The notes under the pieces: generated by a model
Seen by the model: the letters and a program-made list of their open reading frames with translations, nothing else
Database searches by the model: none
What the model was told of the DNA's origin: nothing
Origin: Polyangia bacterium
Lineage (GTDB): Bacteria > Myxococcota_A > Polyangia > Fen-1088
NCBI GenBank assembly: GCA_036268875.1
Contig: DATATI010000068.1
Location: 1 to 34,985, forward strand
Length of the DNA stretch: 34,985 nucleotides
Reading direction: 5' to 3'
Made by a program: the position numbers and the translations under genes
In this document: in pieces, positions 12,607 through 28,194 of the stretch
Layout: each line of letters opens with the position of its first letter
Position numbering within the stretch: the first letter of the stretch is position 1

Positions 12607-14874
12607 ATGAATTCGATTGGACGGTTGCTGGTCGCGTCGCTGATAGTCGGCGCTGGTGGCTTGAGCGCGTGCCGCCAGAGCAACCTGGTCGGCGGTCCTT
12701 TGCCGCCACCCGACAACGCTGGCGGCGTGGTGACTTCGTTGCCGACGATCCCCAATCAGGCCTTGATGTACCGGGCCGAGCTGACGGCGCAGCCCAAAGT
12801 GATCGACACCGATCAGACCACCGATGCGCCTTTGATGGGCAACGGCGATCTCGGCGTTGCCATCTTCGGCGGCATCGACGCGATGACCTTCAATCTGAAC
12901 AAGAACGAGTTCTGGTCGCTTGGCGAGGGCCGCGTCAAAGCGATGGAGCGCCTGACGCTGGCCATCCCGGGCATGGTCGGGGCGACTTACGCGATGACCG
13001 AGGAACTGGGCCTGGGCGAGATCACCGGAACGTTTTCGGTCGGAGATCGGACGATCACCACGAAGAGCTGGGTCCAGGCCGACGACACCACGGTGAATCG
13101 GGTGATCACTCAGCTGACGTTGACCGGCGGTGGCTCGCTGGCGGCCAGCGTCACCCTGGCGATCGGGCACCTCAACACTTACGCCAGTACGACGTCAGCA
13201 ATGGGCGACGTGCTGTATCGTGACGTGCGGGCCGACGACAGCGACACCATCGGCGCCCAGGCCACCCGCCGCGTGCGTGTCGCGACCCGCACCGTCGGCG
13301 CAACCGGAACCGTCGCCAACGACGCGATGACGTTCACCCTGACGTCGAATGCGCCGGTCTGGTTGATCACCGGTGTCATGAGCAACCTGGACGATGCCAA
13401 TTACCAAAGTCGGGTTTTGGATAGTGTCGCGTCGCTGGGAGCCAATGACGTCACGGCGCTGGAGGCCGCGCATCGTTCCTGGTGGGACCGCTTCTACCGT
13501 CAGTCTTTCGTCGAGATCCCCGACAAGGTCCTCGAGAAATTCTTTTATGCGGCGCTTTATCTGTTTGGCAGTGCGTCGCGCGCCGGCGAGCAGGCACCCG
13601 GCCTCTGGGCGAACTGGGTGATGCGGGATCCGGCGTGGAACGGCGACTACGGCCTCGACTACAACTACGAGGCGCCGTACTACGCCGTCTTCCCCACCAA
13701 CCACGTCGAACTGGCGGCCAATTATGACCAGCCAATCATCGATTGGCTTCCGAATGCTCAGGCCGAGGCAACAAAAAACGGTTGGACGGGCGCCTACTAC
13801 CGCGTGCACATCGGACCGTTGCCCAATGGCAGCGCCGACACGAATGAATGGAACCAGAAATTCAACAATGCCTTCGCCGCCAGCGTGATGATCAGCCACT
13901 ACTACTCGACGCGCGATCCGGCCTATGCGGCTGGCATTTACGACACGCTGAAACAGATGTCGATCTTCTGGCAGGACTATCTCAAGACCGACGGCGCCCG
14001 GTATGTGGTCTACAGCGATCCCCAACAAGAAGGCGGCGCAGATCCGCAGGTAAACGGGTTCATGTCTCTCGGTTTTGTCCGGCTTCTTTTCCAAGGAACA
14101 ATCGACATCAGCACCGCGCTGGGTCGTGACGCTGACCAAAGGGCGGTCTGGCAAGATCGGATGGCCAACCTTTCCGCGTTCCCGACATTCACCAGAGACG
14201 GCAAGACCGTCTTTCGTTACACCGAGGTCGGCCTGGACTGGTATCCGTCGAACGCCGTCGGGATCCATCCGATCTACCCCGCCGGTCAGATCGGCCTTGG
14301 CAGCGACCCGGCCCTGCTGTCCACTGCCCAGAACATGGTGGACGAGATGGCGCGATGGAATGACCAAAACGGCACCAATACGTTCTATCCAGCTGCGGCG
14401 CGCGTCGGGCACGATCCGATCGACATCCTCATGCACCTGGACACCTGGGTCGGGGGCAACAGCTACCCGAACCTGCACATTCACACCAGCGGCGGTGGAA
14501 TCGAGAACCTGAATACCGTCCCGTCGACCATCTCCGAGATGCTGTTGCAGTCGTTCCAGGGAAAGTTGCGGCTGTTCGCTGATTGGCCGATCTCATCGGA
14601 CGCGCGCTTCGGCAACCTGCGTGCGTGGGGCGGATTCCTGGTCGCCAGTCGCCTCACGGGAGGGATCGTCCAGTACGTTCGCATCGCCAGCGAGCAAGGA
14701 CAGACCGCCATCCTGGTGAATCCGTGGCCGGGCCAGACGCTGCGCCTTTATCGGAACGGTGTTGACGCCGGCACGTTGAGCGGTCCAGAGGTGACGCTGC
14801 CGACGGCGAAGGGCGAGGTCTTGACGCTGGCCCGAGACGGTACGACGTACGCAGCGATCGTCCCGAAGCTGTAG
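12607..14874 (+). CDS. GH95-like (six-hairpin) glycosidase lipoprotein
   Basis: A 755-residue surface lipoprotein with a lipobox at LSAC (about Cys23) after a short signal. Residues about 55-270 form a beta-sandwich beginning APLMGNGDLGVAIFGGIDAMTFNLNKNEFW, the layout found at the start of GH95 fucosidases and relatives. An (alpha/alpha)6-barrel follows, with FFYAALYLFGSASRAG, WNGDYGLDYNYEAPYYAVFPTNHVEL and DPQQEGGADPQVNGFMSLGFVRLLF, then a small C-terminal beta domain. The Asn-Tyr-Glu in the WNGDYGLDYNYEAPY motif lies where GH95 enzymes have NTEMNYW, so a retained catalytic acid is possible but not proven. ATG 12607 is chosen over upstream starts because GGAG lies 8 bases before it and the signal begins there. 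Predicted role: cleavage of an external glycan. It is convergent with the ECF sigma operon. Confidence 0.78.
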   Translation: MNSIGRLLVASLIVGAGGLSACRQSNLVGGPLPPPDNAGGVVTSLPTIPNQALMYRAELTAQPKVIDTDQTTDAPLMGNGDLGVAIFGGIDAMTFNLNKNEFWSLGEGRVKAMERLTLAIPGMVGATYAMTEELGLGEITGTFSVGDRTITTKSWVQADDTTVNRVITQLTLTGGGSLAASVTLAIGHLNTYASTTSAMGDVLYRDVRADDSDTIGAQATRRVRVATRTVGATGTVANDAMTFTLTSNAPVWLITGVMSNLDDANYQSRVLDSVASLGANDVTALEAAHRSWWDRFYRQSFVEIPDKVLEKFFYAALYLFGSASRAGEQAPGLWANWVMRDPAWNGDYGLDYNYEAPYYAVFPTNHVELAANYDQPIIDWLPNAQAEATKNGWTGAYYRVHIGPLPNGSADTNEWNQKFNNAFAASVMISHYYSTRDPAYAAGIYDTLKQMSIFWQDYLKTDGARYVVYSDPQQEGGADPQVNGFMSLGFVRLLFQGTIDISTALGRDADQRAVWQDRMANLSAFPTFTRDGKTVFRYTEVGLDWYPSNAVGIHPIYPAGQIGLGSDPALLSTAQNMVDEMARWNDQNGTNTFYPAAARVGHDPIDILMHLDTWVGGNSYPNLHIHTSGGGIENLNTVPSTISEMLLQSFQGKLRLFADWPISSDARFGNLRAWGGFLVASRLTGGIVQYVRIASEQGQTAILVNPWPGQTLRLYRNGVDAGTLSGPEVTLPTAKGEVLTLARDGTTYAAIVPKL

Positions 14875-14915: not shown

Positions 14916-15842
14916 TCAGGGCGTTGCCGCGCCGGTGGCGGCGGAACCGCTCCGGAGACAGGCGGCGCGTCCCACCTGCGCGCGCCGCTTCATCGATCCG
15001 TCGCTGGCCAGTGACAACACCCGATCGAAATCGTTGACGGCGCGTGCACAGTCGTTTGCGGCCGCCCGCAGCTCGCCGCGAATCAGGCCCAATTCCAGAT
15101 CCCGCGCTCCTTCTGACAGTGACAGCTCGTTCAATTTGTTCAATGCAGGGCCGCGCCGTCCAGCCAGGAGGAGCGCATCGATTCTCAGACGGGCTGCCTC
15201 CGGGGCCAGCACGCCCGATGAGAACCGCCTTTCGTAGTCGTCCAGGAGAGCGAGCGCCCGGTGGGGATCGCGTTTTTGCCGAAGCGCCACCACGGCGCCT
15301 TCGAGGAAGGCACTTCCCCCCCCAGCGGCCGGCCGGCGGCGCGGCGACGGGCTGGTCGTAATCGGTGGCGGGAAGACCGTGGGCGCAGGATCCGGATCTG
15401 CGTCCGTCGTGGGGGCCGCCGCTGGTGCTGCGGGCGTGTTGGGTGAAATGATCCGGCTGGGTAAGCGCCGCCGGGTTGGCGATTCCGCCGGCGCCGCCGA
15501 GGTGTGCGGCAACAGAGCCAAAATGCGTGGCCAAACCGGCGCCCATCCTCGTGCCGCGGCAACCACACCGCCGCCGAAGAGCATGACGGCGCCGACCACC
15601 AGCCAGACGATCGCAGGCGCCCGACGGTGATTGGCAGACGTGGGTCGAATCGATCCATCCAGCCGCACGCGCACGCCAGAAAGCCGCGCCCAGGACACTG
15701 TCGTCGGTGGCTTTACGTTTCGCAGCAGCGCGCCGGCGCGTTTTTCGATTGAATCAGGTTCGCCGGGCCGGTCAGGCATGTCTGCGAAGCGCGTCGGGCC
15801 GTCTGTCGATTGGCGTTGCCCGGTGGAGTGGTCATCGCTCAT
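14916..15842 (-). CDS. Membrane protein with C-terminal TPR-like domain, sigma-factor partner
   Basis: A 308-residue single-pass protein. Residues 1-73 are cytoplasmic and polar; about 75-98 are a membrane helix (APAIVWLVVGAVMLFGGGVVAAA); about 115-185 are a Pro/Ala/Thr-rich linker; and about 190-300 are a helical domain that looks like tetratricopeptide repeats (DPHRALALLDDYERRFSSGVLAPEAARLRIDALLLAGR). The start at 15842 is chosen because its ATG overlaps the sigma factor stop as ATGA, implying translational coupling; the frame is open a little further. Genes of this architecture follow ECF sigma genes in myxobacteria and probably serve as anti-sigma or signalling partners, although no zinc-binding anti-sigma motif is present. 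That role is inference. Confidence 0.72.
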   Translation of the reverse strand: MSDDHSTGQRQSTDGPTRFADMPDRPGEPDSIEKRAGALLRNVKPPTTVSWARLSGVRVRLDGSIRPTSANHRRAPAIVWLVVGAVMLFGGGVVAAARGWAPVWPRILALLPHTSAAPAESPTRRRLPSRIISPNTPAAPAAAPTTDADPDPAPTVFPPPITTSPSPRRRPAAGGGSAFLEGAVVALRQKRDPHRALALLDDYERRFSSGVLAPEAARLRIDALLLAGRRGPALNKLNELSLSEGARDLELGLIRGELRAAANDCARAVNDFDRVLSLASDGSMKRRAQVGRAACLRSGSAATGAATP

Positions 15843-16507
15843 CGCGCACCACCTCGGGCCTGTTTCGCCTCCCATGCCAGGAGCTTCCGCAAGAACTGCT
15901 TTCTCGCCCGGTGCAACCGCAACCAGACATTGGCCACACTGGTCCCGCTGATGGCGGCGATCTCATCTCCGCTCAGGCCCTGTAATTCGAAAAGGATCAG
16001 CACCGTGCGGTGAACTTCGGACAATTCGTCGAGGACCTGGTACGTGAGCGCCTTGGCCTCCTTTTGCTCGATCGCCTCCAGGGGCGAGGCCGACGTCGAG
16101 GGAGCGTTCTTCATGGCGTCGGCGCCATCCGCGTCCCCGCCGCCGACCCAGCCGAACCAGCGACGCCATCGCCGCGCCCGGCGGCGGTCAGAGACAACCC
16201 GAATTGTGATGGCGTACAGCCAGGCGGGGACGCTGGCATCAGCGCGCAACGTGTGCAACCTCTTGTGCACCACCAGGAAAACCTCGTGGACGACGTCTTC
16301 GACTTCGACGTCTCGGCCCGTCAGCCATCCCACCCACCGTGCGACCATCGGCGCGTGAAGGCGATATATCTCGTCAAGCGTTGGCTTCTCGACATGTTTG
16401 GACGAGGCGCCGTTCGGCGCCTGCGGGGGCAAATTTTCAGGCCCAGAGGGTGGCGCCCCCCCATTGCCTTGATTGCCGGCCGCCAACACTAAAAGAGGGT
16501 TGGTCAT
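15839..16507 (-). CDS. RNA polymerase sigma factor, ECF (sigma-70) family
   Basis: A 222-residue ECF sigma factor. Region 2 covers about residues 45-115: Y-LHAPMVARWVGWLTGRDVEVEDVVHEVFLVVHKRLHTLRADASVPAWLYAITIRVVSDRRRARR, with the core-binding DVEDVVHEVF segment. Region 4 covers about 150-210: LDELSEVHRTVLILFELQGLSGDEIAAISGTSVANVWLRLHRARKQFLR, the -35 recognition helix-turn-helix. The ATG at 16507 is taken as start; a TTG at 16561, directly after the upstream gene's stop, would add 18 residues. Neither has a good ribosome site. The stop overlaps the next gene by ATGA. It probably governs envelope or stress genes, including its own operon; target promoters are not identifiable here. Confidence 0.95.
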   Translation of the reverse strand: MTNPLLVLAAGNQGNGGAPPSGPENLPPQAPNGASSKHVEKPTLDEIYRLHAPMVARWVGWLTGRDVEVEDVVHEVFLVVHKRLHTLRADASVPAWLYAITIRVVSDRRRARRWRRWFGWVGGGDADGADAMKNAPSTSASPLEAIEQKEAKALTYQVLDELSEVHRTVLILFELQGLSGDEIAAISGTSVANVWLRLHRARKQFLRKLLAWEAKQARGGAR

Positions 16508-16561
16508 AAATGTGCGATCGTCAGATGGGTGAAAATCGCGGTTCCTTTCAGACAAAATCAA

Positions 16562-17542
16562 TCAACGGCCGAAAAAGCTGAAACCCAAGGAAGTCGAGCC
16601 TGCCCAGGAGGGGATCTCCCGCCGTTGCCCCGACACGGTCTCATGAACGTCGCGCGCGTCCAGCCACCGCGTCGCATCGATGGCCAACCAAGCGCGCCAC
16701 GCCCGCCCCGGTGCAATCAGGCGCAGGCCCGTCGAAACCCCTCCATCGAATCCGCTGCTTTGAAAGCTGGCCGGGTACTGCTCACCGTGGACGCGAAAGA
16801 GCGCAGCGACCAGCATCAAGTTGGCATCGATCGCCCAGGCGCTGAGATTGCGGCGATAGGCTGGCCCAACGCCCGCCGTGTAGCGCGACCAGACTGCCTG
16901 GCCGGCACCGGCGGTCGTCGACCGATCACCTTCGCCGGTAGCGACCATCTGCGCTCCAATGCCGTTGCCGCGCAGCAACGCACCGGTCAGACGCGCACCG
17001 GGCACGAACGACCCGTCAGCCACCGAGCTGCCGACGCCGACCCCGAGATCCCACGTCGTCTTTGCGTGCGCAATCGGTGCCGGCGGCATCGGTTTTATGA
17101 CGTCAACGGTGGGCTGCGCCTTCGATGGCGATAAAGGCGCAGGTGGCGCCGCAAGTTGTCGCTCGAATGTGAGATGAACGTCGCTGGCCCAGGTGGCCAG
17201 GACAATCGCCGCCACCCGGGCGCGTTCGTCGCATGGGCCTTGCGCCGGCAAACGCCGACGACCGATGATGGTACCGTCGGCACGGAGCAGCACGATCTCG
17301 ATCGCGTCGTCGATCATTTCGATCCGGGCTCGGGCGCCGCCATCCGGCATCTGCCCCGAAGGTGCATGAGCCGCCGACGCCGGAGACAACAACGACGAGA
17401 ACCGCGCCGCCACCTCCGTGGCCGTGGGACACGTCGCGTCCCCATCGATCGTCCAGGGTCCAACGCTGTTCGAGGTGGTGCCGGCCGGTTCCACAACTGG
17501 CGCCAGCAACGCCAGCATCGCCCCTAGCCCAAAGGTCGTCAT
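16562..17542 (-). CDS. Exported beta-strand-rich hypothetical protein of the ECF operon
   Basis: A 326-residue protein with an N-terminal signal-like segment (MTTFGLGAMLALLAPVVEPAG). The first half has a small domain with CPTATEVAARF-S and a Cys pair (Cys37 region and GPCDERARV) that could form a disulfide; a Pro/Ala-rich linker follows at about 125-155; and the second half shows alternating strands (TWDLGVGVGSSVADG, GIGAQMVATGEGD, SRYTAGVGPAYRR, DANLMLVAALFRVHGEQY) ending in FSFFGR with a terminal aromatic pattern, consistent with an outer-membrane beta-barrel. This arrangement is frequent beside ECF sigma genes in myxobacteria. It starts the minus-strand operon and may be the surface sensor; that is inference. 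No named family recognised. Confidence 0.7.
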   Translation of the reverse strand: MTTFGLGAMLALLAPVVEPAGTTSNSVGPWTIDGDATCPTATEVAARFSSLLSPASAAHAPSGQMPDGGARARIEMIDDAIEIVLLRADGTIIGRRRLPAQGPCDERARVAAIVLATWASDVHLTFERQLAAPPAPLSPSKAQPTVDVIKPMPPAPIAHAKTTWDLGVGVGSSVADGSFVPGARLTGALLRGNGIGAQMVATGEGDRSTTAGAGQAVWSRYTAGVGPAYRRNLSAWAIDANLMLVAALFRVHGEQYPASFQSSGFDGGVSTGLRLIAPGRAWRAWLAIDATRWLDARDVHETVSGQRREIPSWAGSTSLGFSFFGR

Positions 17543-17720: not shown

Positions 17721-18788
17721 ATGAGGGATTTGCGCGCCCGGCTGAGTTTCATCGCCGTGACGCCGGTCCTTCTACTGGCCGGCTGTACAAGCAGCGTGAC
17801 CGCTCCGCCCAGTTTCCCGACCGGCGGCCAAGGCGGTGTCGATGCTGGCATGTCGGTCGACGGCACCGTCGTCGACGTCGACCAAGAAAGCCCATCGCCG
17901 ACCGACGCTGGACCGACGGACGCGCCCATTGTCACGGATGTACCTGACGTCGTCACGGATGCCGCCAGCGATCTGGACGTGCCGTCGGGAGACGGTGCCT
18001 GCAGCAACCTGTTCTGCGAAGACTTCGAGCAGGGGATGATCGATCCCGCGAAGTGGAACGCCCAGATGGGGGGATCTGGCACCCTGGAAGTGCAGCAACA
18101 GATCATCCATAGCGGCAAGTACGCCTACCACGTGCACGGCAGTGGTGCGTCCCAGGACTTTGCGATGATCATCGCGACCGACGTTCCAGCGGCTTTGAAG
18201 GGTGCCGGCCCGCTCTATGGTCGCGCGTACGTCTATGCCAACACGAACGTTGGCTCGCATATCGAGCTCGGATTCGCCGGCAGCACGAGCAGCCCGACCG
18301 TGGCGCCAACGATCACCAAGGGAATGAACTTCAATTACATGGAGTTCGCCAACTACTCCAACTCCTGGCAACTCGGCTTCGACCTTTTCGCGCCAGCGCC
18401 CGACATTGCCAAGGGCTTCGTCGAGGAGGCGTCGTATCCACCGGCGCGCGACAAATATCCCGCCGGCACGTGGAACTGCCTTGAATGGGAGTTCGGCGAC
18501 AACCCCGACCTGATGGTCCTCTGGGTCGACGGCCAACAGATCGATCAATTCGATGTTCAACACATCGACTACACCAGCGTCGCCCGCACCGCCGGAAGTG
18601 TCCTGAACGGAAAGAGCAGCGGCGTCATCGGCGGCTATAACTTCTTTGGGTTTGGCTTTCACTCTTACGGTGCCTCAACGACTGTCGAACGTTATTTCGA
18701 CGACATCGCAATCGATATCAAAAGAGTCGGCTGCCTTCCCGACGCCCCATCCGGCGTCGGGAAGGCAAAGAGAGTTGGGAGATTGTAA
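17721..18788 (+). CDS. Lipoprotein with concanavalin/Cip1-like carbohydrate-binding-type domain
   Basis: A 355-residue predicted surface lipoprotein, lipobox LLAGC (Cys22). Residues about 30-92 are an Asp/Ala/Pro/Val-rich acidic linker. Residues about 93-340 form a compact domain beginning CSNLFCEDFEQGMIDPAKWNAQ and continuing with strands such as YAYHVHGSGA, LYGRAYVYAN, GTWNCLEWEFGDNPDLMVLWVDGQQI and a closing VERYFDDIAIDIKRVGC. This is the jelly-roll pattern of laminin-G/Cip1/polysaccharide-lyase-like folds that bind or cut glycans. No catalytic residues can be assigned with confidence. It opens the six-gene operon; its TAA overlaps the next ATG by one base. A long perfect hairpin lies in its last codons. 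Confidence 0.75.
   Translation: MRDLRARLSFIAVTPVLLLAGCTSSVTAPPSFPTGGQGGVDAGMSVDGTVVDVDQESPSPTDAGPTDAPIVTDVPDVVTDAASDLDVPSGDGACSNLFCEDFEQGMIDPAKWNAQMGGSGTLEVQQQIIHSGKYAYHVHGSGASQDFAMIIATDVPAALKGAGPLYGRAYVYANTNVGSHIELGFAGSTSSPTVAPTITKGMNFNYMEFANYSNSWQLGFDLFAPAPDIAKGFVEEASYPPARDKYPAGTWNCLEWEFGDNPDLMVLWVDGQQIDQFDVQHIDYTSVARTAGSVLNGKSSGVIGGYNFFGFGFHSYGASTTVERYFDDIAIDIKRVGCLPDAPSGVGKAKRVGRL
18732..18767 (+). repeat. Perfect 15-bp inverted repeat (hairpin) at the 3' end of a CDS
   Basis: TGCCTTCCCGACGCC (18732-18746) and GGCGTCGGGAAGGCA (18753-18767) are exact reverse complements separated by six bases. The RNA would form a very stable hairpin inside the last 20 codons of the preceding gene, 20 bases before the next start. 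No run of T follows, so it is not a standard intrinsic terminator; attenuation or transcript processing/stabilisation is possible. Confidence 0.85.
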
Positions 18789-20518
18789 TGATCATCAAGC
18801 GGCTATTGATTGACTCATTGACAGTGACGATCGGCGCCGCGCTGCTCGTTGGATGTTCGGGCGACATCGGCTGGTCCAATGGTGGTCCAAGCGGCGCAAC
18901 AGGCGGCGGCCAGCCGAACGGCGGCACGCCGAACAGTGGCCAGCCCAGCGGCGCAGGCGGCGGGACGCCGACGTCGGGCGCCGGCTTGCTCAATCTGCCG
19001 TCGGCGGCGCTACCAGCGAACGGCCTGCACAAGCTGACCGCGTGGGAATTCAGCAACAGCCTGCAAGATCTCCTGGGCAGCGCCGGACCACTGTCCCCGG
19101 TCGAGGTCGACACGCTGATCGGGGGATTCGCCACCGTCGGCGCGTCGTCGGTATCGATCTCGCCGGCCGGCGTCGGTCAGTACGAGACGGTCCTTGGCGC
19201 CGTAACCAACGTCGCGTTTGGCGATGCTGCCCACGCGGGGGCGGTCCTTCCCTGTGTGCCACAGTCGACGACGGATACCGCGTGCCTGACGTCCGCGCTG
19301 AACGCCTTCGGCCGCCGCGCTTTCCGGAGGCCGCTGTCCGCTGACGAGACGACGGCCTTCGTGAACCTCGCCACCAGCATCGGCACGCAAACAGGCGCCA
19401 CAGTCCTTACCGGCGTCCAGCACGCGGTCTGGGCGATGTTGCAGTCGCCCGACTTTCTTTACCGCGTCGAGCTCGGCGCACCCAGCGCCTCTGACGGCGG
19501 CCGCCTCAAGTATACCGGCTTCGAGATCGCGTCGCGCCTGGCGGCCGTGATCTGGGGTTCGGTGCCCGACGATCCGCTGCTGGACGCTGCGGCGGGCAAC
19601 ACGCTGGCGACGCCGGGCGGGATCCGAACCCAGGTGCAACGGATGGTCGCCGACCCGCGCGCGCACCGGGCCTTGGCCGCCTTCGCCGATCAGCTGTTCG
19701 ACGCGTTCGCGCTCAGCCAGGCGGACAAGGATCCCATGTTCACCGCGTACACGACCACGCTGCGGGCGGCGATGCTCAAGGAGATCGAGCTGCGCGTCGA
19801 CGACATGACGTTCACCCAGAAGGGCGATTACCTGTCGCTCTTCGAGAGCACCACGACGTTCGTGAACAAAGAGCTGGCAACGTTCTACGGCGTTCCCTTC
19901 ACCGCCACCGACAACGATTTCCACCGCGTCGACTTGCCGGCCGGCACGCCGCGCGTGGGCCTGCTGGGTTCGGCAGGGATCCTGGCCGGCCACGCCCACT
20001 CCCAGTTGACGTCACCCACGTCGCGCGGCAAGTACGTCGACACGATGCTCCTCTGCCGGACGGTGCCGCCGCCGCCGCCCGGCGTGCCGCCGCTGCCGGA
20101 CCATGCACCGCCTGGATCGACGGTGCGGCAGGTGATGGAGGCCCACCGATCACAGGCTCAGTGCTCGGCCTGCCACGCGATGATGGATCCGATCGGGTTC
20201 GGGATGGAGAACTTCGACACCACCGGGCAGTACCGGACGTCCGACAACGGGCAACCGATCGACGCCTCCGGGACGCTGGACGGCGTGGCGTTCAACTCGC
20301 TGGCCCAGCTGGGGTCCGCGCTGCGCAAGAACGCCTCGACCGGGCCGTGCCTGGTCAGCAAGGTCTACGAAAACGCGCTCGGGCGGCAGCCGATCGACAT
20401 CGACGCCGCGGCCCTGGATCAACTGATCACCAAGTTCAACGGCAGCGGCCACCACATCGATCAGTTGCTGGTCGATCTGGCCGGCAGCGACGGCTTTCGC
20501 TTCGTCAGCCCCAAGTAA
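18788..20518 (+). CDS. DUF1592 family lipoprotein with CxxCH heme motif
   Basis: A 576-residue surface lipoprotein, lipobox LLVGC (about Cys23), followed by a Gly/Asn/Pro-rich linker to about residue 68. The DUF1587/1595/1592/1588/1585-type order can be followed: LHKLTAWEFSNSLQDLLG near 78; ALNAFGRRAFRRPLSADE near 165 (DUF1595); LQSPDFLYRVELG and LKYTGFEIASRLAAVIWGSVPDDPLLDAA (DUF1592); TSPTSRGKYVDTMLLCRTVPPPPPGVPPL and CSACHAMMDPIGFGMENFDTTGQYR (DUF1588, heme motif Cys459-His463); and a C-terminal DUF1585 with LVSKVYENALGRQP. The CxxCH implies covalent heme c and an electron-transfer role. It begins within the previous gene's stop (TAATG). Biochemical function is not known; its constant companion is the DUF1552 protein encoded next. 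Confidence 0.93.
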   Translation: MIIKRLLIDSLTVTIGAALLVGCSGDIGWSNGGPSGATGGGQPNGGTPNSGQPSGAGGGTPTSGAGLLNLPSAALPANGLHKLTAWEFSNSLQDLLGSAGPLSPVEVDTLIGGFATVGASSVSISPAGVGQYETVLGAVTNVAFGDAAHAGAVLPCVPQSTTDTACLTSALNAFGRRAFRRPLSADETTAFVNLATSIGTQTGATVLTGVQHAVWAMLQSPDFLYRVELGAPSASDGGRLKYTGFEIASRLAAVIWGSVPDDPLLDAAAGNTLATPGGIRTQVQRMVADPRAHRALAAFADQLFDAFALSQADKDPMFTAYTTTLRAAMLKEIELRVDDMTFTQKGDYLSLFESTTTFVNKELATFYGVPFTATDNDFHRVDLPAGTPRVGLLGSAGILAGHAHSQLTSPTSRGKYVDTMLLCRTVPPPPPGVPPLPDHAPPGSTVRQVMEAHRSQAQCSACHAMMDPIGFGMENFDTTGQYRTSDNGQPIDASGTLDGVAFNSLAQLGSALRKNASTGPCLVSKVYENALGRQPIDIDAAALDQLITKFNGSGHHIDQLLVDLAGSDGFRFVSPK

Positions 20519-20562
20519 GAAAATAAATAAGCAGGAAGACAGGAAGGCAGAGAGGAGATCCG

Positions 20563-21927
20563 ATGCTCTACGGTCGTAACAGGCTCTCACGTCGTACGGT
20601 CCTGCGCGGGGCGATGCTCGGCGGGGCCACCGTCGCGCTTCCCCTGCCCCGCCTCGGTGCCATGCTGAACGGCAACGGCACTGCCTATGCCGACGGCACC
20701 GCGCTGCCGGTGCGCTTCGGCTGGTGGTTCTTCGGCAACGGCATCATCCCCGAGCGCTGGGTGCCATCGCGCACCGGTGTCGGCGACAACTGGGCGCTCA
20801 GCGAAGAGCTGGCGCCGCTGGAGAACGTCAAGCCCTGGGTCCAGGTCATCAGCGGCACGGCGATCAAGGTGCCGGACCGGGCGCCGCACTCCAGTTTCAC
20901 CGCGGCGGCGCTCTCGGGCGCGGACAGCGCTCCGAAGACCACCTTGCTTCCAACGATCGAACAGGTCATCGGAAAGATGATCAACACCAGCACGACGTTC
21001 CCCACCGGGCTGCACATCGGCATCGGCAACTCGGGGGGCGGGACGGAGATCGGAGATACGCACTCGTTCTCGGGCATGAACATGCCCAACCCGCCCGAGT
21101 TCGACCCCAGCAACATGTTCAAGAAGCTGATGCCGTTTGCCAGCAGCGCGAACGGCAAGCCGACGACGCCCGATCCCGAGCTGTTGCGTCGCCAGATGGT
21201 GCTGGACGCCGTCAGTAACCAGGCGAGCAACCTGCGCAAGCGCCTGGGCCTGGACGATCAGCAGCGCCTGGATCGGCACCTGCAAGGCATTCACGAGCTG
21301 CAGACCCAGATCATGCGCGCCTCGGGTCCGAAGGTCAGCGGCAAGCTCGTCGATCCGGCGACGGCGCATCCGAACGGCGGCTCGCCCGGGTCGCTGTCAC
21401 GCGTGCGCTGTCAGGCGTTCAACGATCTGCTGGTGTTCGCGCTGTCGACGGATCTGACGCGCGTCTTCAGCTACACGTTCACCCCGGCGGCGTCTTTCCA
21501 GGTGTACTCGGACTGCGGGTTGCCTGGCGGGTACCACAGCACCTACGGCCACCGCGGCAGCCCGATGGGCGCCGCGTTCGCCACCGCGGGCATGAACACC
21601 GGCTTGCGCTACGCGATCGGCAACCTGGGCGATCTGCTGACGCGCATGCAGGAGACGCCCGACGGCGCTGGCAACCTGCTCGACAATTCGTGCGTGTACA
21701 CCACGTCGTGCACGTCAGAGTCACAGACGCACTCGCCGCTGGACTTCCCCATCGTGGTGTCGGGCAAGGCGGGCGGCAAGCTGAAGGGCGATCAGCACAT
21801 CCGTCTCATCGACGAGAACACCTCCAAGGTGCTGTACACGCTGTACGGTGCTTACGGCGGCACCGCGCCGACCTTCGGCAAAGACGAAGGCCAGGTTTCA
21901 AGCGGCATACCGGAAATGCTGGCGTGA
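20563..21927 (+). CDS. DUF1552 family protein, Tat-exported
   Basis: A complete 454-residue DUF1552 protein. It starts with a twin-arginine signal (SRRTVLRG followed by AMLGGATVALPLPRL), so it is exported folded, consistent with a cofactor or metal in the family. The body shows FGWWFFGNGIIPERWVP, SGTAIKVPDRAPHSSF, RKRLGLDDQQRLDRHLQGIHELQ (a long helix), and the C-terminal NLLDNSCVYTTSCTSESQTHS and SGKAGGKLKGDQH motifs, which include conserved His residues that may bind metal. The family belongs near DUF1501 and alkaline-phosphatase-like proteins. A GAGAGGAGA ribosome site precedes the ATG, 44 bases after the DUF1592 stop. It is similar to the partial protein at the left edge. Its own activity is unknown. 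Confidence 0.93.
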   Translation: MLYGRNRLSRRTVLRGAMLGGATVALPLPRLGAMLNGNGTAYADGTALPVRFGWWFFGNGIIPERWVPSRTGVGDNWALSEELAPLENVKPWVQVISGTAIKVPDRAPHSSFTAAALSGADSAPKTTLLPTIEQVIGKMINTSTTFPTGLHIGIGNSGGGTEIGDTHSFSGMNMPNPPEFDPSNMFKKLMPFASSANGKPTTPDPELLRRQMVLDAVSNQASNLRKRLGLDDQQRLDRHLQGIHELQTQIMRASGPKVSGKLVDPATAHPNGGSPGSLSRVRCQAFNDLLVFALSTDLTRVFSYTFTPAASFQVYSDCGLPGGYHSTYGHRGSPMGAAFATAGMNTGLRYAIGNLGDLLTRMQETPDGAGNLLDNSCVYTTSCTSESQTHSPLDFPIVVSGKAGGKLKGDQHIRLIDENTSKVLYTLYGAYGGTAPTFGKDEGQVSSGIPEMLA

Positions 21928-23396
21928 GGCGGGCGCGTCGTCTTCTGCACGTCGCGGCGCTGGCGGCCGCGGCCTCGGCGATCGCTTGTGCATCCAGTTC
22001 AGGCGGCGGCGAGAAAACCGGCAGCGGCGGTACCACGGGCAGCGGCAGCGGCGGCGGCGGCGCTTCCACCGTCGGTGGCGAAGGGAGCGGCGGCACCAAC
22101 GGTGGCGGTGGCACCGCCATCGGCGGAAGCGGTGGCGCCGCCAGCACGACCGACGGTGGCGGGTCAGTTCCCATCGTTCCCGATGATGGCGCCGTCCCCA
22201 GCGCGCCGGTCATGGCCATCAAGGGACCGCCGGTGACCTTCACTGAATTCCCCATCACCGACGGAGGACCGATGACGGCATCGCCCGGCGGCATCTGCGC
22301 CGGCGCCGACGGGCGCATCTGGTATCTGCACCAGAACACCGGCCCCAGCGCGAACGGCGCCGTCGACATCAACGGCAGCAAGTTCAATCTGTACACGGTC
22401 GCCGTCACCAACATCGGCCCGGTGGCCATCGCGCCCGGGCCGGACGGCAACGTCTGGTACACCAGTCAACAAAAGGTCGGCAAGATGCTGCCTTCCGGCA
22501 GCTACACCGAGTACCAGGCGCCGCAAAAGCCGCAGACCGGCGGTCTGGTCAAAGGACCGGACAACAACATGTGGTTCACCGAACCGATCGCCAACCGCAT
22601 CGGTTACACCACGACCTCCGGTCAGATAAAGGAATTCCCCGTCCCCGGTACGGGCAAAGATCCGAGCGACCTCACCCTCGGCCCCGACGGCAATCTGTGG
22701 TTCAGCGAGACCACCGGGAACCAGATCGGGCGCATCACGCCCACTGGCACCGTCACGGAGTTTCCGATCCCCACGCCGGCCAGCTTTCCGAACGCCATCA
22801 CCGCCGGCCCCGACGGCAACCTGTGGTTCACCGAACACGACGGCCACAACATCGGGCGCATCACGCCGACCGGCACCATCACCGAGTTCGGCATCCCGTC
22901 GGGGGCGCGACCCTACGCCATCACCACCGGCCCCGACGGCAACCTGTGGTTCACCGAGCCGGGCAGCTTCAACGCCATCGGCCGCTGCACACCGACGGGC
23001 GGGATCTCCGAGTATCCGGTCCCCTCTCCCAACGCCGAGGTCATGGGCATCACCGTCGGCCCCGACAAGAACCTCTGGTTCGCCGAGCGCGACGCCAACA
23101 AGATCGCGCGCCTCAGCAACATCACCGGTGGCGGCACCGTCAACAGCGTCGCCGGCGACGGCCTGGGCGGCAGCGTCCTCAACTCGGTCGGCAAGTGCAC
23201 CGTCGATCACGACTGCATTGCCAGCGGCAAAGGCTGCGGCGGCGATGTCTGCAGCCACAAGAGCGCCGCGCCGACTTGCACGCTGGCCGTCAGCAACGAT
23301 CCCGGCTGGTGCAACACCGCCGCCGATTGCTGGTGCACTGTCGAGGGCGCGACCTGCGACGCCGCCACGCACCGCTGCTCGCTGATCGCCCCTTAA
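21924..23396 (+). CDS. Vgb-like seven-bladed beta-propeller lipoprotein, catalytic His replaced
   Basis: A 490-residue exported protein, beginning at a GTG that overlaps the previous stop (GTGA). The signal is short and basic with lipobox-like AIAC (about Cys22), followed by a Gly/Ser/Thr-rich linker to about residue 85. Seven GPDGNLWFTE-type repeats follow (GADGRIWYL, GPDGNVWYT, GPDNNMWFT, GPDGNLWFS, GPDGNLWFT twice, GPDKNLWFA), the blade signature of streptogramin B lyases (Vgb). Compared from memory with S. aureus Vgb, catalytic His228 aligns to Tyr (RPYAIT) and His270 to Met (AEVMGIT), while Glu268 is kept, so lyase activity is unlikely. The last ~70 residues hold ten Cys and look like a disulfide-rich module. 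A binding or scaffold role on the surface is more likely. Confidence 0.85.
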   Translation: MRRARRLLHVAALAAAASAIACASSSGGGEKTGSGGTTGSGSGGGGASTVGGEGSGGTNGGGGTAIGGSGGAASTTDGGGSVPIVPDDGAVPSAPVMAIKGPPVTFTEFPITDGGPMTASPGGICAGADGRIWYLHQNTGPSANGAVDINGSKFNLYTVAVTNIGPVAIAPGPDGNVWYTSQQKVGKMLPSGSYTEYQAPQKPQTGGLVKGPDNNMWFTEPIANRIGYTTTSGQIKEFPVPGTGKDPSDLTLGPDGNLWFSETTGNQIGRITPTGTVTEFPIPTPASFPNAITAGPDGNLWFTEHDGHNIGRITPTGTITEFGIPSGARPYAITTGPDGNLWFTEPGSFNAIGRCTPTGGISEYPVPSPNAEVMGITVGPDKNLWFAERDANKIARLSNITGGGTVNSVAGDGLGGSVLNSVGKCTVDHDCIASGKGCGGDVCSHKSAAPTCTLAVSNDPGWCNTAADCWCTVEGATCDAATHRCSLIAP

Positions 23397-23410
23397 CGCA
23401 CGGAGCTGCA

Positions 23411-23623
23411 ATGAATGCTGCCCGCCAAATGGTCCTTGAACTTGCGCCGACCGACCGGGTTGTGGTCGGCGCACTGGAAGACCTCAGCCACGGCTATTAC
23501 GACGGTCTCATCGACGAACTGCCCGTCGAGGCCGTCGCTCGTTCGGCGTCGCGGATCGCGCCACAAGCCATCGCCGTCACGGGCGACGCCATCACCATGG
23601 GACCCGAGGAGCACGCGCCATGA
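23411..23623 (+). CDS. Small hypothetical protein coupled to the SOD-like gene
   Basis: A 70-residue soluble acidic protein (MNAARQMVLELAPTD, then DGLIDELPVEAVARSASRIAP). GGAG lies 6 bases before the ATG, and the stop overlaps the next start as ATGA, the same coupling seen elsewhere in the operon. It lacks a signal peptide, unlike its neighbours, so it would stay in the cytoplasm. I do not recognise it. The regular ribosome site and coupling argue that it is translated. Confidence 0.6.
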   Translation: MNAARQMVLELAPTDRVVVGALEDLSHGYYDGLIDELPVEAVARSASRIAPQAIAVTGDAITMGPEEHAP

Positions 23624-24372
23624 GGAAGAACGTCCAGAACGCATCAATGAACGGCCGTTTGATGATGGCAGCGGTGTTGGTTTGCTGCCTGGGTGGCCTG
23701 CTGGCCTGCGGTGCGGACTCTGGCGCGGGTCCCGGGGGCAGCGCCGGCGGCGCGGGCATGCAACCCGGCGGCACCGGCGGCACCAGCAACAACGGCGGTG
23801 GCACCGGCGGGGTTGCCGAACCCGGTGGCATGATTGGCGGCGAAGGCGACACCGGCAAAGGCGGCACGTCGGGAAAGAACGTCGACGACGGTTCTCTCTT
23901 CAAAGACGCTGGCTCCGTCAGCAGCATTCTCGCCGACGCGGGCGGTCCCAACGCAACGCCCGACGCCGGCGCCAGCACAATGAAGGAAGTCGGGGCCTCG
24001 GCCATCCCGGGAGACGGCAACATGGCGACCGGAAAGATCGGCGGGTTCGGTCTCAAAGCGATCTTCACGCAGCAAGGCCTGGACGTCACTGTCGCCATCA
24101 CCGCCACGAATTGCCCGCAGGGAATGCACACCTTCACCATTCACGAAGGCTTCGCCTGCGACGATCCCACCAAGGGCCCGGTGTGGGGCAGTGGAAAACG
24201 CGGCGGCGGCATCCCCGCGCTCGTCTGCGATTCAACGAAGCACGGCACCTTGACGTACACCCGAACGGGCACCGATCCGTCGATGAATTGGACCGTCGCT
24301 GATCACAACCAGACAACCGACCTCACCCTTCACCCACTGATGGCGGACACACAATGCGGAACATTCTTCTAG
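23620..24372 (+). CDS. Lipoprotein with degenerate Cu/Zn superoxide dismutase-like domain
   Basis: A 250-residue surface lipoprotein: signal to about residue 30 with lipobox LLAC, a Gly/Thr/Asn-rich linker to about 85, a spacer, and a C-terminal domain from about 135. This domain follows the SodC fold: a strand LDVTVAITATNCPQGMHTFTIHEGFACDD in place of G-HG-H-HE, GPVWGSGKRGGGIPALVCDSTKHGTLTYT, and a final DLTLHPLMADTQCGTFF with the SodC-type terminal Cys-Gly. Of the usual ligands, one of the two Cu-binding His in HGFHxH is replaced by Thr, and the Zn-ligand His of GPHFNP seems to be missing. It is therefore probably not an active dismutase, but may keep a structural or partial metal site. It ends the operon. 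Confidence 0.72.
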   Translation: MRKNVQNASMNGRLMMAAVLVCCLGGLLACGADSGAGPGGSAGGAGMQPGGTGGTSNNGGGTGGVAEPGGMIGGEGDTGKGGTSGKNVDDGSLFKDAGSVSSILADAGGPNATPDAGASTMKEVGASAIPGDGNMATGKIGGFGLKAIFTQQGLDVTVAITATNCPQGMHTFTIHEGFACDDPTKGPVWGSGKRGGGIPALVCDSTKHGTLTYTRTGTDPSMNWTVADHNQTTDLTLHPLMADTQCGTFF

Positions 24373-24852: not shown

Positions 24853-24859
24853 GCCTGCC

Positions 24860-26272
24860 CTAGCCGAACAAGCCGGGAACCGCGCCTTTGCTGAAGGCGG
24901 TGTCTCCGAACGTCGCCATCGGCATGCCCAGGGCGTTGGCGATGGCGACCCAGACGTCGTTCATGTAGCGCATGCCGAATTGCAGGTGCTTTCCGGTCTG
25001 CAGCTTCAGGTTCTTCCCGCCGAACATCAGCACCGGCATGTTCTCGATCGAGTGGTCCCAGCCGTAGCAGCACTCGTTGAAGTACACGACCACCGTGTTG
25101 TCCAGCAGCGTGCCCGCGCCGTCGGGAGTGGCCTTCATCTTCGTCAGGAAGTCGGCCATCATCTGCGAATAGAACGTGTCGATGGCGGCGTGCTCGTTGG
25201 TGGCCCCCATGTTGTGCGAGATATCGTGGTGGCCTGCCCCGTCGGTGAAGCCGGGCAGAATCTTCGAGAAGCGCAGCGCCGAGTTGCCGTGCGCGAAGCT
25301 GAACGTCGCCACCCGGGCCAGGTCGCACTGGAACGCCGCCAGGATGATCCCCAGCTGATTTTGGGCCAGCGTCTTGTGTTGCGCCTCGTCCTGGGTGGTG
25401 TCACCGGTGGGAGCGGGCAAGGCCGCGTCGACGGGCGGCGTGCAGGAGGTGCCCGCGATCGGAATCGTCGGCGTCGATGTCAGGCGCGCCTGCAGCTTGG
25501 AGATGCCGTCCAGGTGCGCGTCCAGCTTGGTCGTCTGCGACTTCGGCACCAACCCACGCAACCGGGTCAGATCCTTGTTCACGAAGTTGAGGACGCTGGT
25601 GTTCTGCGTCCGCATCCGCGCCAGGTCTTGCGGCGAGGCGTTGGCCATCGCGCCGCCGAAGATGTTCGAGAACAGCACTGAATCGCGGCTCTCCGGGAAC
25701 ATCGCGCCGGCCGTGCCGTAAGACATGACCTTGAAGTTCGGCAGCCCGATGCTGGACGGCGGATAGGCCGTTGACTGGATGCCGGCGGACACCGGCACGT
25801 TCTGAAAGCCCAGCGACGGCTGCTGCAGGAAGAACTGATCCACCGAGAGGCCCGCGGCCATCTGGTTCTTGGCGTTGGCGTCGCCGCCCGAGTTGGTCCC
25901 GGGGATCTCGATCGGGCGCTTGCCCGACATCATGGTGATCATGCCCGCCCCGTGCTGGTCGCCGGCCCAGCCATGATCGCGCGGACAGTAGATGCCGTTC
26001 AGGATGACCATCTGATCTTGCAGCGGCGCGAAAGGCTGCAGGATCGACGGCAAGGTAAAGGTGGTGGCGTTGCCTCCCTGCGGGAAGAACGCGGTCGGGA
26101 ACGTTCCACACGGCCGGTGCACGATCAGCAAGCGCGTCGGCGACGTGCCAGCGGCCGCAGCGAACAGCGGCCGCAGCAGCGATCCGGCGGCGGTGGTCCC
26201 GACGCCGGCCAAAAAAGATCGCCGCGGAACATATCGAAACAGATCGCTCTTCATTTTCGTCTCGCTTTTCAT
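24860..26272 (-). CDS. DUF1552 family protein, Tat-exported (second type)
   Basis: A 470-residue DUF1552 protein. The start is taken at 26272 because its ATG overlaps the upstream DUF1592 stop as ATGA. The Tat signal is YVPRRSFLAGVGTTAAGSLL. The body has RLLIVHRPCGTFPTAFFPQGG, CPRDHGWAGDQHGAGMITMMSGKRP, and the C-terminal LLDNTVVVYFNECCYGWDHSIENMPVLMFGG, MRYMNDVWVAIANALG, with several His/Asp in the GDQHG and WDHS motifs that could bind metal. This C-terminal form differs from the TSCTSESQTHS form at the left edge and at 20563, so the window holds two DUF1552 subtypes. It is the second gene of a coupled DUF1592-DUF1552 pair. Activity unknown. Confidence 0.93.
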   Translation of the reverse strand: MKSETKMKSDLFRYVPRRSFLAGVGTTAAGSLLRPLFAAAAGTSPTRLLIVHRPCGTFPTAFFPQGGNATTFTLPSILQPFAPLQDQMVILNGIYCPRDHGWAGDQHGAGMITMMSGKRPIEIPGTNSGGDANAKNQMAAGLSVDQFFLQQPSLGFQNVPVSAGIQSTAYPPSSIGLPNFKVMSYGTAGAMFPESRDSVLFSNIFGGAMANASPQDLARMRTQNTSVLNFVNKDLTRLRGLVPKSQTTKLDAHLDGISKLQARLTSTPTIPIAGTSCTPPVDAALPAPTGDTTQDEAQHKTLAQNQLGIILAAFQCDLARVATFSFAHGNSALRFSKILPGFTDGAGHHDISHNMGATNEHAAIDTFYSQMMADFLTKMKATPDGAGTLLDNTVVVYFNECCYGWDHSIENMPVLMFGGKNLKLQTGKHLQFGMRYMNDVWVAIANALGMPMATFGDTAFSKGAVPGLFG

Positions 26273-27984
26273 GGCGTCAGATCCCGGGTCAGGAAGCCGG
26301 GAGAGGTGAAGACGGCGCGGTAGTAGTCGGTGAACGACCCGGTCGCGGCCAGCTTGTCTTTCACCTTCTGCAGATCGCACGAGTTGTCATTGAGCAGGTC
26401 GTCGCGACCGATGGTGGGCTTGGAAAGGTTCTTCACCGCGCAGTCGGACACCCGCCGTCCCATCTTCAGCTTGTTCACCAGATCGGGCAGCCCGGAGATC
26501 GGCCCGTCGAGATCCGGCCCCAGGTGAGCCAGCGTCGACGAGGCATCGATGACCTGGCCGCTGGTGTCCTTGGGGGTGTAACGCCCGACGGGATCGTATT
26601 GCTCGGTGGCCAGGCCCAGCGGATCGAAGAGCCCGTGGCAGGCGCCGCAGCCTTCCTTGGCGGTGGCGCGCAGCTGCGCCTTCTCGCGCTCGGTGGCCGT
26701 GGGCGGAAACGTCGAGGCCACCGCGGCCGCGTTGTCCGGCGGCTGCCCGATCGAGATGCCACACACCAGCGCGTTGTAGATGAACAACCCGCGGTGAATG
26801 ACGTCGCCCCGGTTGGCATCGCCGTCCGAGCTGGGCTGCGACCAGGCCGCCAGGATTCCCGGCTGGGTGATGATCCCGGCGGCGCGATCGCTGCCCGCGT
26901 GAACCGGCGTCAGGTCCGTGCCGCTGACTCCGGCGAGACCGTAAAGCTTGGCCACGCCCGCGTTGGCGTACAGCGTGTCCGACGTCAGTAGCTGGGCAAC
27001 TGTCCCGCGCGCCATCAGGTCGGTCACGAACAGCTCGCCGCTCTTGTACAGATCCTGGGTCATGGTGGCGTCGAAGTCCGGGAACGCGGTCGCGTTCCTC
27101 GGCACCATCGACCGGATCTTCTCGACGCCCAGCCAGTAGCCGGCCTTCTGCCCCAGATTGGCCTGCACCGCCGGATCCGCCAAAAGCCGATCGACCTCCG
27201 CCGCCAGCACGGCCGGCTTCAGCAACGCGGACGACTCTGCCTTCGCCCACAGCTGATCATCCGGCACAGAATCCAGCAGCGCGAACGAAACCGCCGTGGC
27301 CAGCTCGTGCGCGGTCAGCGCGGTCTTCTTGCCCGACATCGTCGTGCCAAGCTCGGTGCGGTACAGGAACGACGGCGATTGCAGGGTCGCCTCGATGACA
27401 AGGCGGATGCCGGCGGCGGCGCTCTCCGTCGACAGGCCGGTGTGATAGATGCCCAGCAGATCCGAAACCTCTCCTTCGGTCACCGGGCGTCCGAAGGCGC
27501 GGGCCACGCGGTTGCGAATGAACAGCTCGACCTCCGTGCCGGGCGGCGCGGTGGCGCTGGACGGAAGGAAGACGTTCAGGTTGGCGTGGACCGCCGCCGC
27601 CGCCGCGGTTTGCGCGGCCGTCGCGTAGGCGTTGACGGTGTTCGCTTGCACCGTCAGCTCGGGCGATTCTGCGGTGGCGGTGAAATCCGCCGGCGCCGTT
27701 TCTGCCTCTGTAATCGACGACGGAACCCGCACGCCGAAGACCTGGGCCACCACGTTGACGTATTGCTCGTCGGTCAGTCGCCAGATACGCGCCGCCGCCA
27801 GCGACGCGTCGGCCATGCACGGCGTCGGCGTTGGGGGCGGCGTGACCTGCCCGCCGGTGTCGGGCGGCGTCGTCACGCCGCCCCGGTCGCCTGGGTTCGA
27901 ACTATCAGCGATCGAACCCGAGCAACCGGCCGCCACAAACGCGGCGACCCCCGCCACTGTCAGCCCTAGGAACTTTTTTGCCAT
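26269..27984 (-). CDS. DUF1592 family lipoprotein with CxxCH heme motif (second copy)
   Basis: A 571-residue lipoprotein, lipobox FVAAGC (Cys18-19 region), then a short Pro/Thr/Gly-rich linker. Family segments in order: ARIWRLTDEQYVNVVAQVFG (DUF1587-like), VARAFGRPVTEGEV (DUF1595), LQSPSFLYRTELG and LTAHELATAVSFALLDSVPDDQLWAKAES (DUF1592), the heme motif CGACHGLFDPLGLATEQYDPVGRY (Cys446-His450, DUF1588), and a DUF1585-like C-terminus with VSDCAVKNLSKPTIGRD. The start at 27984 has an AAGAAGG ribosome site and gives the complete lipoprotein signal; the longer frame does not. Coupled by ATGA to the DUF1552 gene and divergent from a discoidin-like lipoprotein gene. Predicted surface heme c protein. 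Confidence 0.93.
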   Translation of the reverse strand: MAKKFLGLTVAGVAAFVAAGCSGSIADSSNPGDRGGVTTPPDTGGQVTPPPTPTPCMADASLAAARIWRLTDEQYVNVVAQVFGVRVPSSITEAETAPADFTATAESPELTVQANTVNAYATAAQTAAAAAVHANLNVFLPSSATAPPGTEVELFIRNRVARAFGRPVTEGEVSDLLGIYHTGLSTESAAAGIRLVIEATLQSPSFLYRTELGTTMSGKKTALTAHELATAVSFALLDSVPDDQLWAKAESSALLKPAVLAAEVDRLLADPAVQANLGQKAGYWLGVEKIRSMVPRNATAFPDFDATMTQDLYKSGELFVTDLMARGTVAQLLTSDTLYANAGVAKLYGLAGVSGTDLTPVHAGSDRAAGIITQPGILAAWSQPSSDGDANRGDVIHRGLFIYNALVCGISIGQPPDNAAAVASTFPPTATEREKAQLRATAKEGCGACHGLFDPLGLATEQYDPVGRYTPKDTSGQVIDASSTLAHLGPDLDGPISGLPDLVNKLKMGRRVSDCAVKNLSKPTIGRDDLLNDNSCDLQKVKDKLAATGSFTDYYRAVFTSPGFLTRDLTP

Positions 27985-28194
27985 TGGACCTTCTTCCCCT
28001 TTGGCGCGACGAAAGCTCACCCTCGGTGAGAGTTGTCCTCACAGGATGGGTCTTCTCCGCCGAACCTTTCCCGGTCCTTGTTCATCCTGGCGTCGGCCGA
28101 TTGGGCACCCTCGGCGGGGGGCCGGGTGTTCGGCAGACAGCGGTGGTAAGTAATCAGGTGCCTGCCCAATCGCCGGCCGCCGTCTTGGAAGGAA
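27985..28194. promoter_or_regulatory. Divergent control region, DUF1592 pair / discoidin-like gene
   Basis: This 210-base region must hold the promoters of both divergent units. It contains a short hairpin CTCACC-CTC-GGTGAG (28016-28030) and a widely spaced inverted repeat, CGATTGGGCA (28098-28107) with TGCCCAATCG (28163-28172). No clear -10/-35 pair was found. A shared regulator site is possible but unproven. Confidence 0.4.

Follow-up and report, generated by a model that had tools for sequence, protein, structure and literature searches.

A DUF1592-DUF1552 gene pair as the core of a four-gene operon, possibly an extracytoplasmic redox/hydrolase module, in a Polyangia bacterium

The stretch analysed here, hereafter the window, is the entire contig DATATI010000068.1 (C68; 34,985 bases) from the GenBank assembly GCA_036268875.1 of a Polyangia bacterium. 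Four genes within it, g1 to g4 (17721-23396), appear to form one operon. It would encode an extracytoplasmic redox/hydrolase module whose probable target is a glycan or a similar cell-surface polymer, a reading to which we assign a probability of about 0.5. The conserved core of this operon is the gene pair g2-g3, which encodes a DUF1592-type heme c protein and a DUF1552 protein. Two further genes, g5 and g6, follow in the same direction, and an initial annotation had taken all six as a single operon. The genes are as follows:

17721-18788, + strand: g1, a lipoprotein with a Cip1/X122-like jelly-roll domain (PF21340).
18788-20518, + strand: g2, a mono-heme c lipoprotein of PSD3-PSD5-PSD4-PSCyt3-PSD2 architecture (DUF1587/1595/1592/1588/1585), X132-like.
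20563-21927, + strand: g3, a DUF1552 (HXXSHH) protein with a twin-arginine translocation (Tat) signal and a predicted alkaline-phosphatase/sulfatase-superfamily fold.
21924-23396, + strand: g4, a Vgb-type beta-propeller with a Cys-rich C-terminal tail, probably a lipoprotein with a non-canonical lipobox.
23411-23623, + strand: g5, a 70-amino-acid (aa) open reading frame (ORF), probably left over from the 3' end of a lectin-like DUF2341-LamG gene.
23620-24372, + strand: g6, a lipoprotein without Pfam or PDB match, apparently the ancestral first gene of the adjoining inverted pair h2-h3.

The six ORFs and their spacing were as initially described, with a TAATG overlap between g1 and g2, a 44-nucleotide (nt) gap between g2 and g3, a GTGA overlap between g3 and g4, a 14-nt gap between g4 and g5 and an ATGA overlap between g5 and g6. 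A codon-usage gene caller returned the identical six genes, the weakest being g5 (score 22). Export signals had been claimed for all but the 70-residue protein; by eye and by pattern, this was confirmed for g1, g2 and g6, which have a lipobox-like cysteine, and for g3 with its twin-arginine N-terminus, whereas the lipobox of g4 is non-canonical (AIAC). Gene order, domains, the one-heme motif and the relationships of g5 and g6 were established from the sequence and by comparison with other loci.

The strongest conservation was found for g2-g3. A comparison set of 65 loci, taken from named genomes of Myxococcota, Acidobacteria and other groups, held 63 adjacent same-strand DUF1592→DUF1552 pairs, 57 of them at most 60 nt apart and 21 overlapping by 4 nt; by the profiles used, no g1-, g4- or g6-like gene was present in the fetched flanks of these loci. 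The initial annotation spoke of one pair, but there are about 34 in the genome, and another one, at 24860-28020, lies opposite the operon. Including partial ones, 34 DUF1552 and 36 DUF1592 matches were counted, and mapping of 18-20 kb around them identified 29 pairs that are intact and adjacent, 13 of which overlap by 4 nt, in variable neighbourhoods. A search for one conserved partner of the pairs was negative: no Pfam family occurred in more than two of 41 flanking genes. Genomes of the same family carry 0 to 43 DUF1552 copies. Ten genomes from two genera (G004, G005, G009, G010, G012-G017) have none, sister genera have 9-43, and several of the ten carry Vgb-type propellers instead. No paper naming DUF1592 and DUF1552 together was found among those searched.

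The designation of g2 as a heme c protein was borne out by a single CxxCH motif (residues 459-463), invariant among 55 aligned relatives, and by Pfam matches to PSD5 (67.8 bits, cut-off 34.2), PSD4 (107.3 bits, cut-off 23.3) and PSCyt3 (108.3 bits, cut-off 27); DUF1587 reached 23.7 bits (cut-off 23). The motif suggests that heme c is attached to g2. By Pfam, neither an X183 nor a further cytochrome c domain beyond PSCyt3 occurs in g1-g6. The likeness of g2 to X132 is based on DUF1587 and CxxCH, without a direct alignment to X132. The AlphaFold2 (AF2) model of g2 (predicted local distance difference test, pLDDT, 88) matched nothing in the PDB by Foldseek at E<=0.001 and reached a maximal VIA Z of 4.5 over 95-125 residues; such weak matches of a modelled structure would be no proof of a new fold.

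For g3, assignment to the DUF1552 family was equally confirmed (PF07586, HXXSHH; 165.8 bits, cut-off 30). The eight top PDB matches of its AF2 model (pLDDT 86.7) in Foldseek, with E values of 6e-5 to 1e-3, were sulfatases, lipoteichoic acid synthase (LtaS) and alkaline phosphatase, and VIA gave Z scores of 15.2-16.5, mostly over 240-277 residues, to nucleotide pyrophosphatases, sulfatases, PafA and MCR-1. The model thus predicts an alkaline-phosphatase/sulfatase-superfamily fold. Among 60 aligned DUF1552 sequences R51, H109, H330, D374 and H390 are invariant. The naming motif H-x-x-S/T-H is replaced in g3 by S326-T-Y-G-H330; the relatives have His at 326 in 53/60, Ser/Thr at 329 in 49/60 and H330 in 60/60 cases. 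His109 lies ten residues ahead of a conserved Gly, just as the nucleophile of sulfatases does in CxPSRxxLxTG, so that the two may be equivalent by motif spacing, as opposed to structural superposition. The comparison of the DUF1552 and sulfatase profiles was thin, with too few diverse sulfatase rows.

The propeller gene g4 matches Vgb_lyase (PF24684) with 278.8 bits (cut-off 50; E 4.6e-83) and reaches 209 bits against virginiamycin B lyase, for which the cut-off is 600. It shares the propeller with virginiamycin B lyase (Vgb) and differs from it by the Cys-rich tail and the export signal. A function as streptogramin lyase was rejected, as the catalytic histidines of VgbB, His228 and His270, are absent. 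In support of a coupling of the propeller to the core pair, the genome holds four g3-g4 copies, three of them with intact g2; elsewhere, a pyrroloquinoline quinone (PQQ)-type propeller gene lies downstream of DUF1552 and a sulfatase in four acidobacterial loci, and a GSDH propeller is fused to DUF1592 in Pseudoalteromonas. The triad g2-g3-g4 recurs at L022 (contig C11; 76/71/67% identity to g2/g3/g4) and L028 (C80; 60/58/51%), making three occurrences, and in a fourth copy, L030 (C9; DUF1552-Vgb, 56/52%), the DUF1592 gene is truncated by the contig start; the Vgb-like gene follows DUF1552 at each of these loci. A fifth Vgb-type propeller of 366 aa (L139, C83, 6115-7215) has no DUF1592 or DUF1552 neighbour in the 12 kb covered. 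Outside this genome the triad was not found, and a search of 19 genomes of relatives (E<=1e-80) detected no member of the g3 clade. The nearest g3-like proteins in named genomes are mostly from Nannocystis, 46-49% identical and without a propeller beside them. Conservation of the gene order in relatives, a check proposed initially, is thus strong for g2-g3, restricted to this genome for g2-g3-g4, and lacking for the six genes.

The match of g1 to PF21340 has a Pfam E value of 3.4e-8. A profile of g1 and three paralogues matched the PDB entries 8q28 (2e-19), 8q2a (2.6e-19) and Cip1, 3zyp (5.7e-13), the first two being TtX122A and TtX122B according to the PDB molecule names and PMC10916295. With these profile matches (8q28/8q2a, E 2e-19), g1 carries the X122 module of TERTU_3803/Cbp2D-type proteins. 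Its nearest copies within the genome (59 and 41%) lie away from any DUF1592-DUF1552 pair. In a relative of the same family (G003), a g1-like (Cip1-like) gene follows DUF1552 after 16 nt, which in turn follows DUF1592 after 24 nt.

Domains like those of the operon occur fused elsewhere, in redox proteins with which bacteria degrade cellulose and starch. TERTU_3803 of Teredinibacter turnerae joins X122, a pf08450 propeller, X183 and X132 in one protein, and X122 and X132 are also fused in TERTU_2913 (PMC10916295). In both, X122 is Cip1-like as in g1, while the N-terminal domain of X132 is of the DUF1587 type and a CxxCH is present, as in g2 (PMC10916295). The propeller of TERTU_3803 is of the pf08450 kind, whereas that of g4 is Vgb-type; moreover, both Teredinibacter proteins are single polypeptides with X183 cytochromes (and, in TERTU_3803, carbohydrate-binding modules, CBMs), whereas here the genes are split. 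The operon also has a DUF1552 partner. Cbp2D of Cellvibrio japonicus similarly has DUF1587/X132 and heme c, fused there to CBM2, the YceI-like X158 and X183 (PMC8981238, PMC12542752). Its X183 domain slowly reduces lytic polysaccharide monooxygenases (LPMOs; PMC8981238), and growth on insoluble cellulose needs cbp2D (PMC12542752). The proposed partner of Cbp2D is an AA10 LPMO. As AA10 (PF03067) had no match in the genome, the one LPMO family searched, an LPMO was rejected as partner of the operon.

Two clustered relatives came from a plasmid search. On a plasmid of Pseudoalteromonas sp. Bsw20308, a 2157-aa 'starch-binding protein' (WP_237113707) consists of three CBM26, a GSDH propeller, a cytochrome c and PSD3/5/4-PSCyt3-PSD2, and the DUF1552 gene (WP_007377118) begins 16 nt behind it. 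This system, too, has a DUF1592 module followed by DUF1552, a dehydrogenase-type propeller and carbohydrate-binding domains, but CBM26, GSDH and cytochrome c are fused there. Sphingobium plasmids carry the order DUF1592-DUF1552-cytochrome c'-cytochrome b561. In Verrucomicrobia, PSCyt3 genes usually adjoin one family of unknown genes, with sulfatases nearby and CBMs fused, and their function was stated to be unknown (PMC5615132). These PSCyt3/PSD and HXXSHH pairs of Planctomycetes and Verrucomicrobia share the domain set of g2; the system described here differs in its myxobacterial genome with about 34 pairs, in carbohydrate-binding-like and propeller modules that are separate lipoproteins, and in a Vgb-type propeller that is a fixed neighbour within a small subclade. 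With PSCyt3 genes already reported beside a family of unknown genes (PMC5615132), the initial label 'undescribed' does not hold for the core pair.

Taken together, g1-g4 are best read as a split-gene relative of fused extracellular redox proteins, in which DUF1552 would be the partner enzyme, with a predicted phosphatase fold. The redox system acting on an external polymer that had been proposed initially is, by analogy, plausible but unproven for a glycan, because g1, g2 and g4 parallel domains fused in TERTU_3803 and, partly, in Cbp2D, and because of the Pseudoalteromonas fusion followed by DUF1552 and the cytochrome clusters of Sphingobium. The core would be formed by g2 as lipid-anchored mono-heme cytochrome-like protein and g3 as Tat-exported partner enzyme of phosphatase/sulfatase fold, while the g4 propeller and the Cip1/X122 jelly-roll of g1 may serve as substrate-facing accessory modules. 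The polymer might be held by g1 and/or g4, g3 would transform it or free a substituent, and the heme of g2 would shuttle electrons to or from the reaction; g5 and g6 would stand outside the module. For the module's location, its substrate, the direction of electron flow and catalysis by g3, this scheme is what we infer.

Several observations weigh against a redox/hydrolase module. No activity was seen with X122 domains in isolation or with the pair of propeller domains from TERTU_3803 (PMC10916295), and no member of the module appears to have a proven activity. The sole demonstrated electron acceptor for a Cbp2D domain, an AA10 LPMO, is missing from the genome. At position 383, an Asp or Glu kept by 50/60 DUF1552 relatives is missing from the clade of g3, which itself has Cys, and g4 has Tyr and Met at the positions of VgbB His228 and His270, with different residues in three paralogues. 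Neither g1 nor the propeller is conserved next to the g3-like pairs of Nannocystis and others, and the absence of a recurrent Pfam family among the flanking genes points in the same direction.

A purely hydrolytic function, which we regard as rather unlikely, would make g3 and its paralogues metal-dependent sulfatase- or phosphodiesterase-like hydrolases of extracellular glycans or lipids, with g2 as a chaperone, sensor or structural partner. The predicted alkaline-phosphatase fold of g3 and the invariant H109, H330, D374 and H390 are in line with this, as are operons often shared with true sulfatases or enzymes like platelet-activating factor acetylhydrolase (PAF-AH) in Acidobacteria and other Myxococcota. 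In Acidobacteria the order is DUF1592-DUF1552-sulfatase, followed in four loci by a PQQ-type propeller. Against it stand the heme motif, invariant in 55/55 sequences, and the cytochromes c' and b561 behind the pair in Sphingobium; in addition, the position of the sulfatase nucleophile is apparently taken by His109, as judged by motif spacing, and the Asp/Glu of most relatives is a Cys in g3.

The two groups of loci were also conspicuous in their own right. An acidobacterial set (L105, L110, L111, L114-L116, L118, L122) comprises O-methyltransferases, DUF1592, DUF1552, a sulfatase and a PQQ-type propeller; the sulfatase has a CTPTR or CSPTR motif and a 4-nt overlap with DUF1552, and some of the DUF1592 proteins have two CxxCH motifs. 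Seven loci of other Myxococcota (L072, L074, L076, L079, L093, L096, L117) encode a PAF-AH-like alpha/beta-hydrolase lipoprotein, DUF1592, DUF1552 and a last lipoprotein of about 300-400 aa without Pfam match, a recurring set that seems to be a separate conserved system.

A more far-reaching version of the redox reading, which we consider doubtful, is that DUF1592-DUF1552 pairs generally form a widespread two-component enzyme for a new oxidative or electron-coupled attack on glycans, with Cbp2D/TERTU_3803 and the split operon as two LPMO-independent builds. If true, this enzyme would consist of a heme protein without known fold and a phosphatase-fold partner.

It is less probable still that the pairs, about 34 in this genome, represent a diversifying family of surface proteins that, together with lipoprotein partners differing between copies, function in adhesion, recognition or contact with prey and not in chemistry. 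The copy numbers (34 here, 0-43 in family relatives), partners that vary from copy to copy, CBM26, LamG and discoidin-like partners, and the mosaic rearrangements and apparent relic within the window would fit such a family, but CxxCH and enzyme-like His/Asp positions are invariant across phyla, and there are operons with dehydrogenase-type propellers and cytochromes.

The rearrangements concern g5, g6 and the region behind them, which contains the following features; a further DUF1552 piece lies at the contig start:

24469-24849, - strand: a transposase-type helix-turn-helix (HTH) ORF (Pfam HTH_32/HTH_23/HTH_33) at the g6/h3 junction.
24860-26272, - strand: h3, the DUF1552 protein of the second pair, with the start taken at 26272 (a longer ORF extends to 26380).
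26269-27984, - strand: h2, a DUF1592-type heme c lipoprotein that forms the second pair with h3 and overlaps it in ATGA.
28195-29007, + strand: h1, an F5/8-type-C (discoidin-like) lipoprotein (Pfam 6.3e-7).
2-493, + strand: the C-terminal end of a DUF1552 protein of the g3 clade, truncated by the contig start (50% identity to g3, 163 aa).

Neither g5 nor g6 had a Pfam match above cut-off. Within g5, window positions 23445-23618 show 83% DNA identity to L039 6080-6253, where a DUF2341-LamG gene for 408 aa has its final 174 nt. As g5 matches only the 3' end of this gene, it is best read from its sequence as a truncated gene relic, and a conserved small protein was rejected on the same grounds. 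In L039, a gene 65% identical to h1 (6308-7108) is situated between the LamG gene and the DUF1592-DUF1552 pair. Directly behind the LamG and discoidin-like lipoprotein genes of this locus, DUF1592 is split by a frame break into two ORFs (8006-8917 and a preceding 267-aa piece), possibly a pseudogene or an assembly error.

The lipoprotein g6 probably belongs to the second pair h2-h3, which faces the operon in the opposite direction and from which an inversion would have parted it. In the relative locus L138, a g6 homologue overlaps DUF1592 by 1 nt, followed after 48 nt by DUF1552; in L137 the same three genes are separated by 372 and 89 nt, and the order g6→DUF1592→DUF1552 likewise occurs at the paralogous locus L027 in this genome. 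The orthologues in L137/L138 are 61-62% and 68-69% identical to h2 and h3, h3 is 92% identical to its L027 paralogue, and positions 24857-28013 show 86% DNA identity to L027 7558-10719. An inversion of this segment would account for g6 now trailing g5. The HTH ORF at the junction is 73% identical in DNA to L013 11005-11362 and likely a mobile-element remnant. An SOD-like nature of g6, as initially suggested, found no support: neither Pfam nor the PDB gave a match for g6, not even with a profile built from four sequences, and Cu/Zn superoxide dismutase (SodC) was rejected, as four homologues were without Pfam match (E<=1) and no PDB superoxide dismutase was matched (E<=5).

A single functional surface system that takes in all six genes, with g6 and the 70-aa protein among them, is very improbable and already contradicted by these neighbourhoods. 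The genes follow one another on one strand without a break, overlapping or at most 44 nt apart, and may well be spanned by one mRNA, but g5 corresponds only to 174 nt at the 3' end of the 408-aa gene, g6 precedes the orthologues of h2-h3 in two relatives and its counterpart does so in one paralogous locus, and no other triad copy has g5 or g6 behind it. Of the initial six-gene operon, the tight coupling of g1-g4 remains.

Upstream of the operon and divergent from its start, the region 14916-17542 (- strand) encodes an extracytoplasmic function (ECF)-type sigma factor (15839-16507), an ORF downstream that may contain a membrane segment, and an exported protein of 326 aa, which are possible regulators of the operon; an ECF sigma/anti-sigma-like pair is likewise found near a DUF1592-DUF1552 pair in L137. 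A GH95-like glycoside hydrolase (12607-14874, + strand; E 9.4e-17) is encoded a few kb upstream.

PSCyt/PSD proteins with DUF1552 neighbours number dozens per genome in some myxobacteria and occur in Acidobacteria and Verrucomicrobia as well. The operon links three loose ends, namely Cip1/X122 and X132, neither with a known activity, and DUF1552 with its predicted phosphatase/sulfatase fold. The Sphingobium and Pseudoalteromonas systems offer more tractable versions for testing. Where Cbp2D/TERTU_3803-type proteins alone show no activity, the operon suggests that DUF1552 may be the missing co-expression partner.

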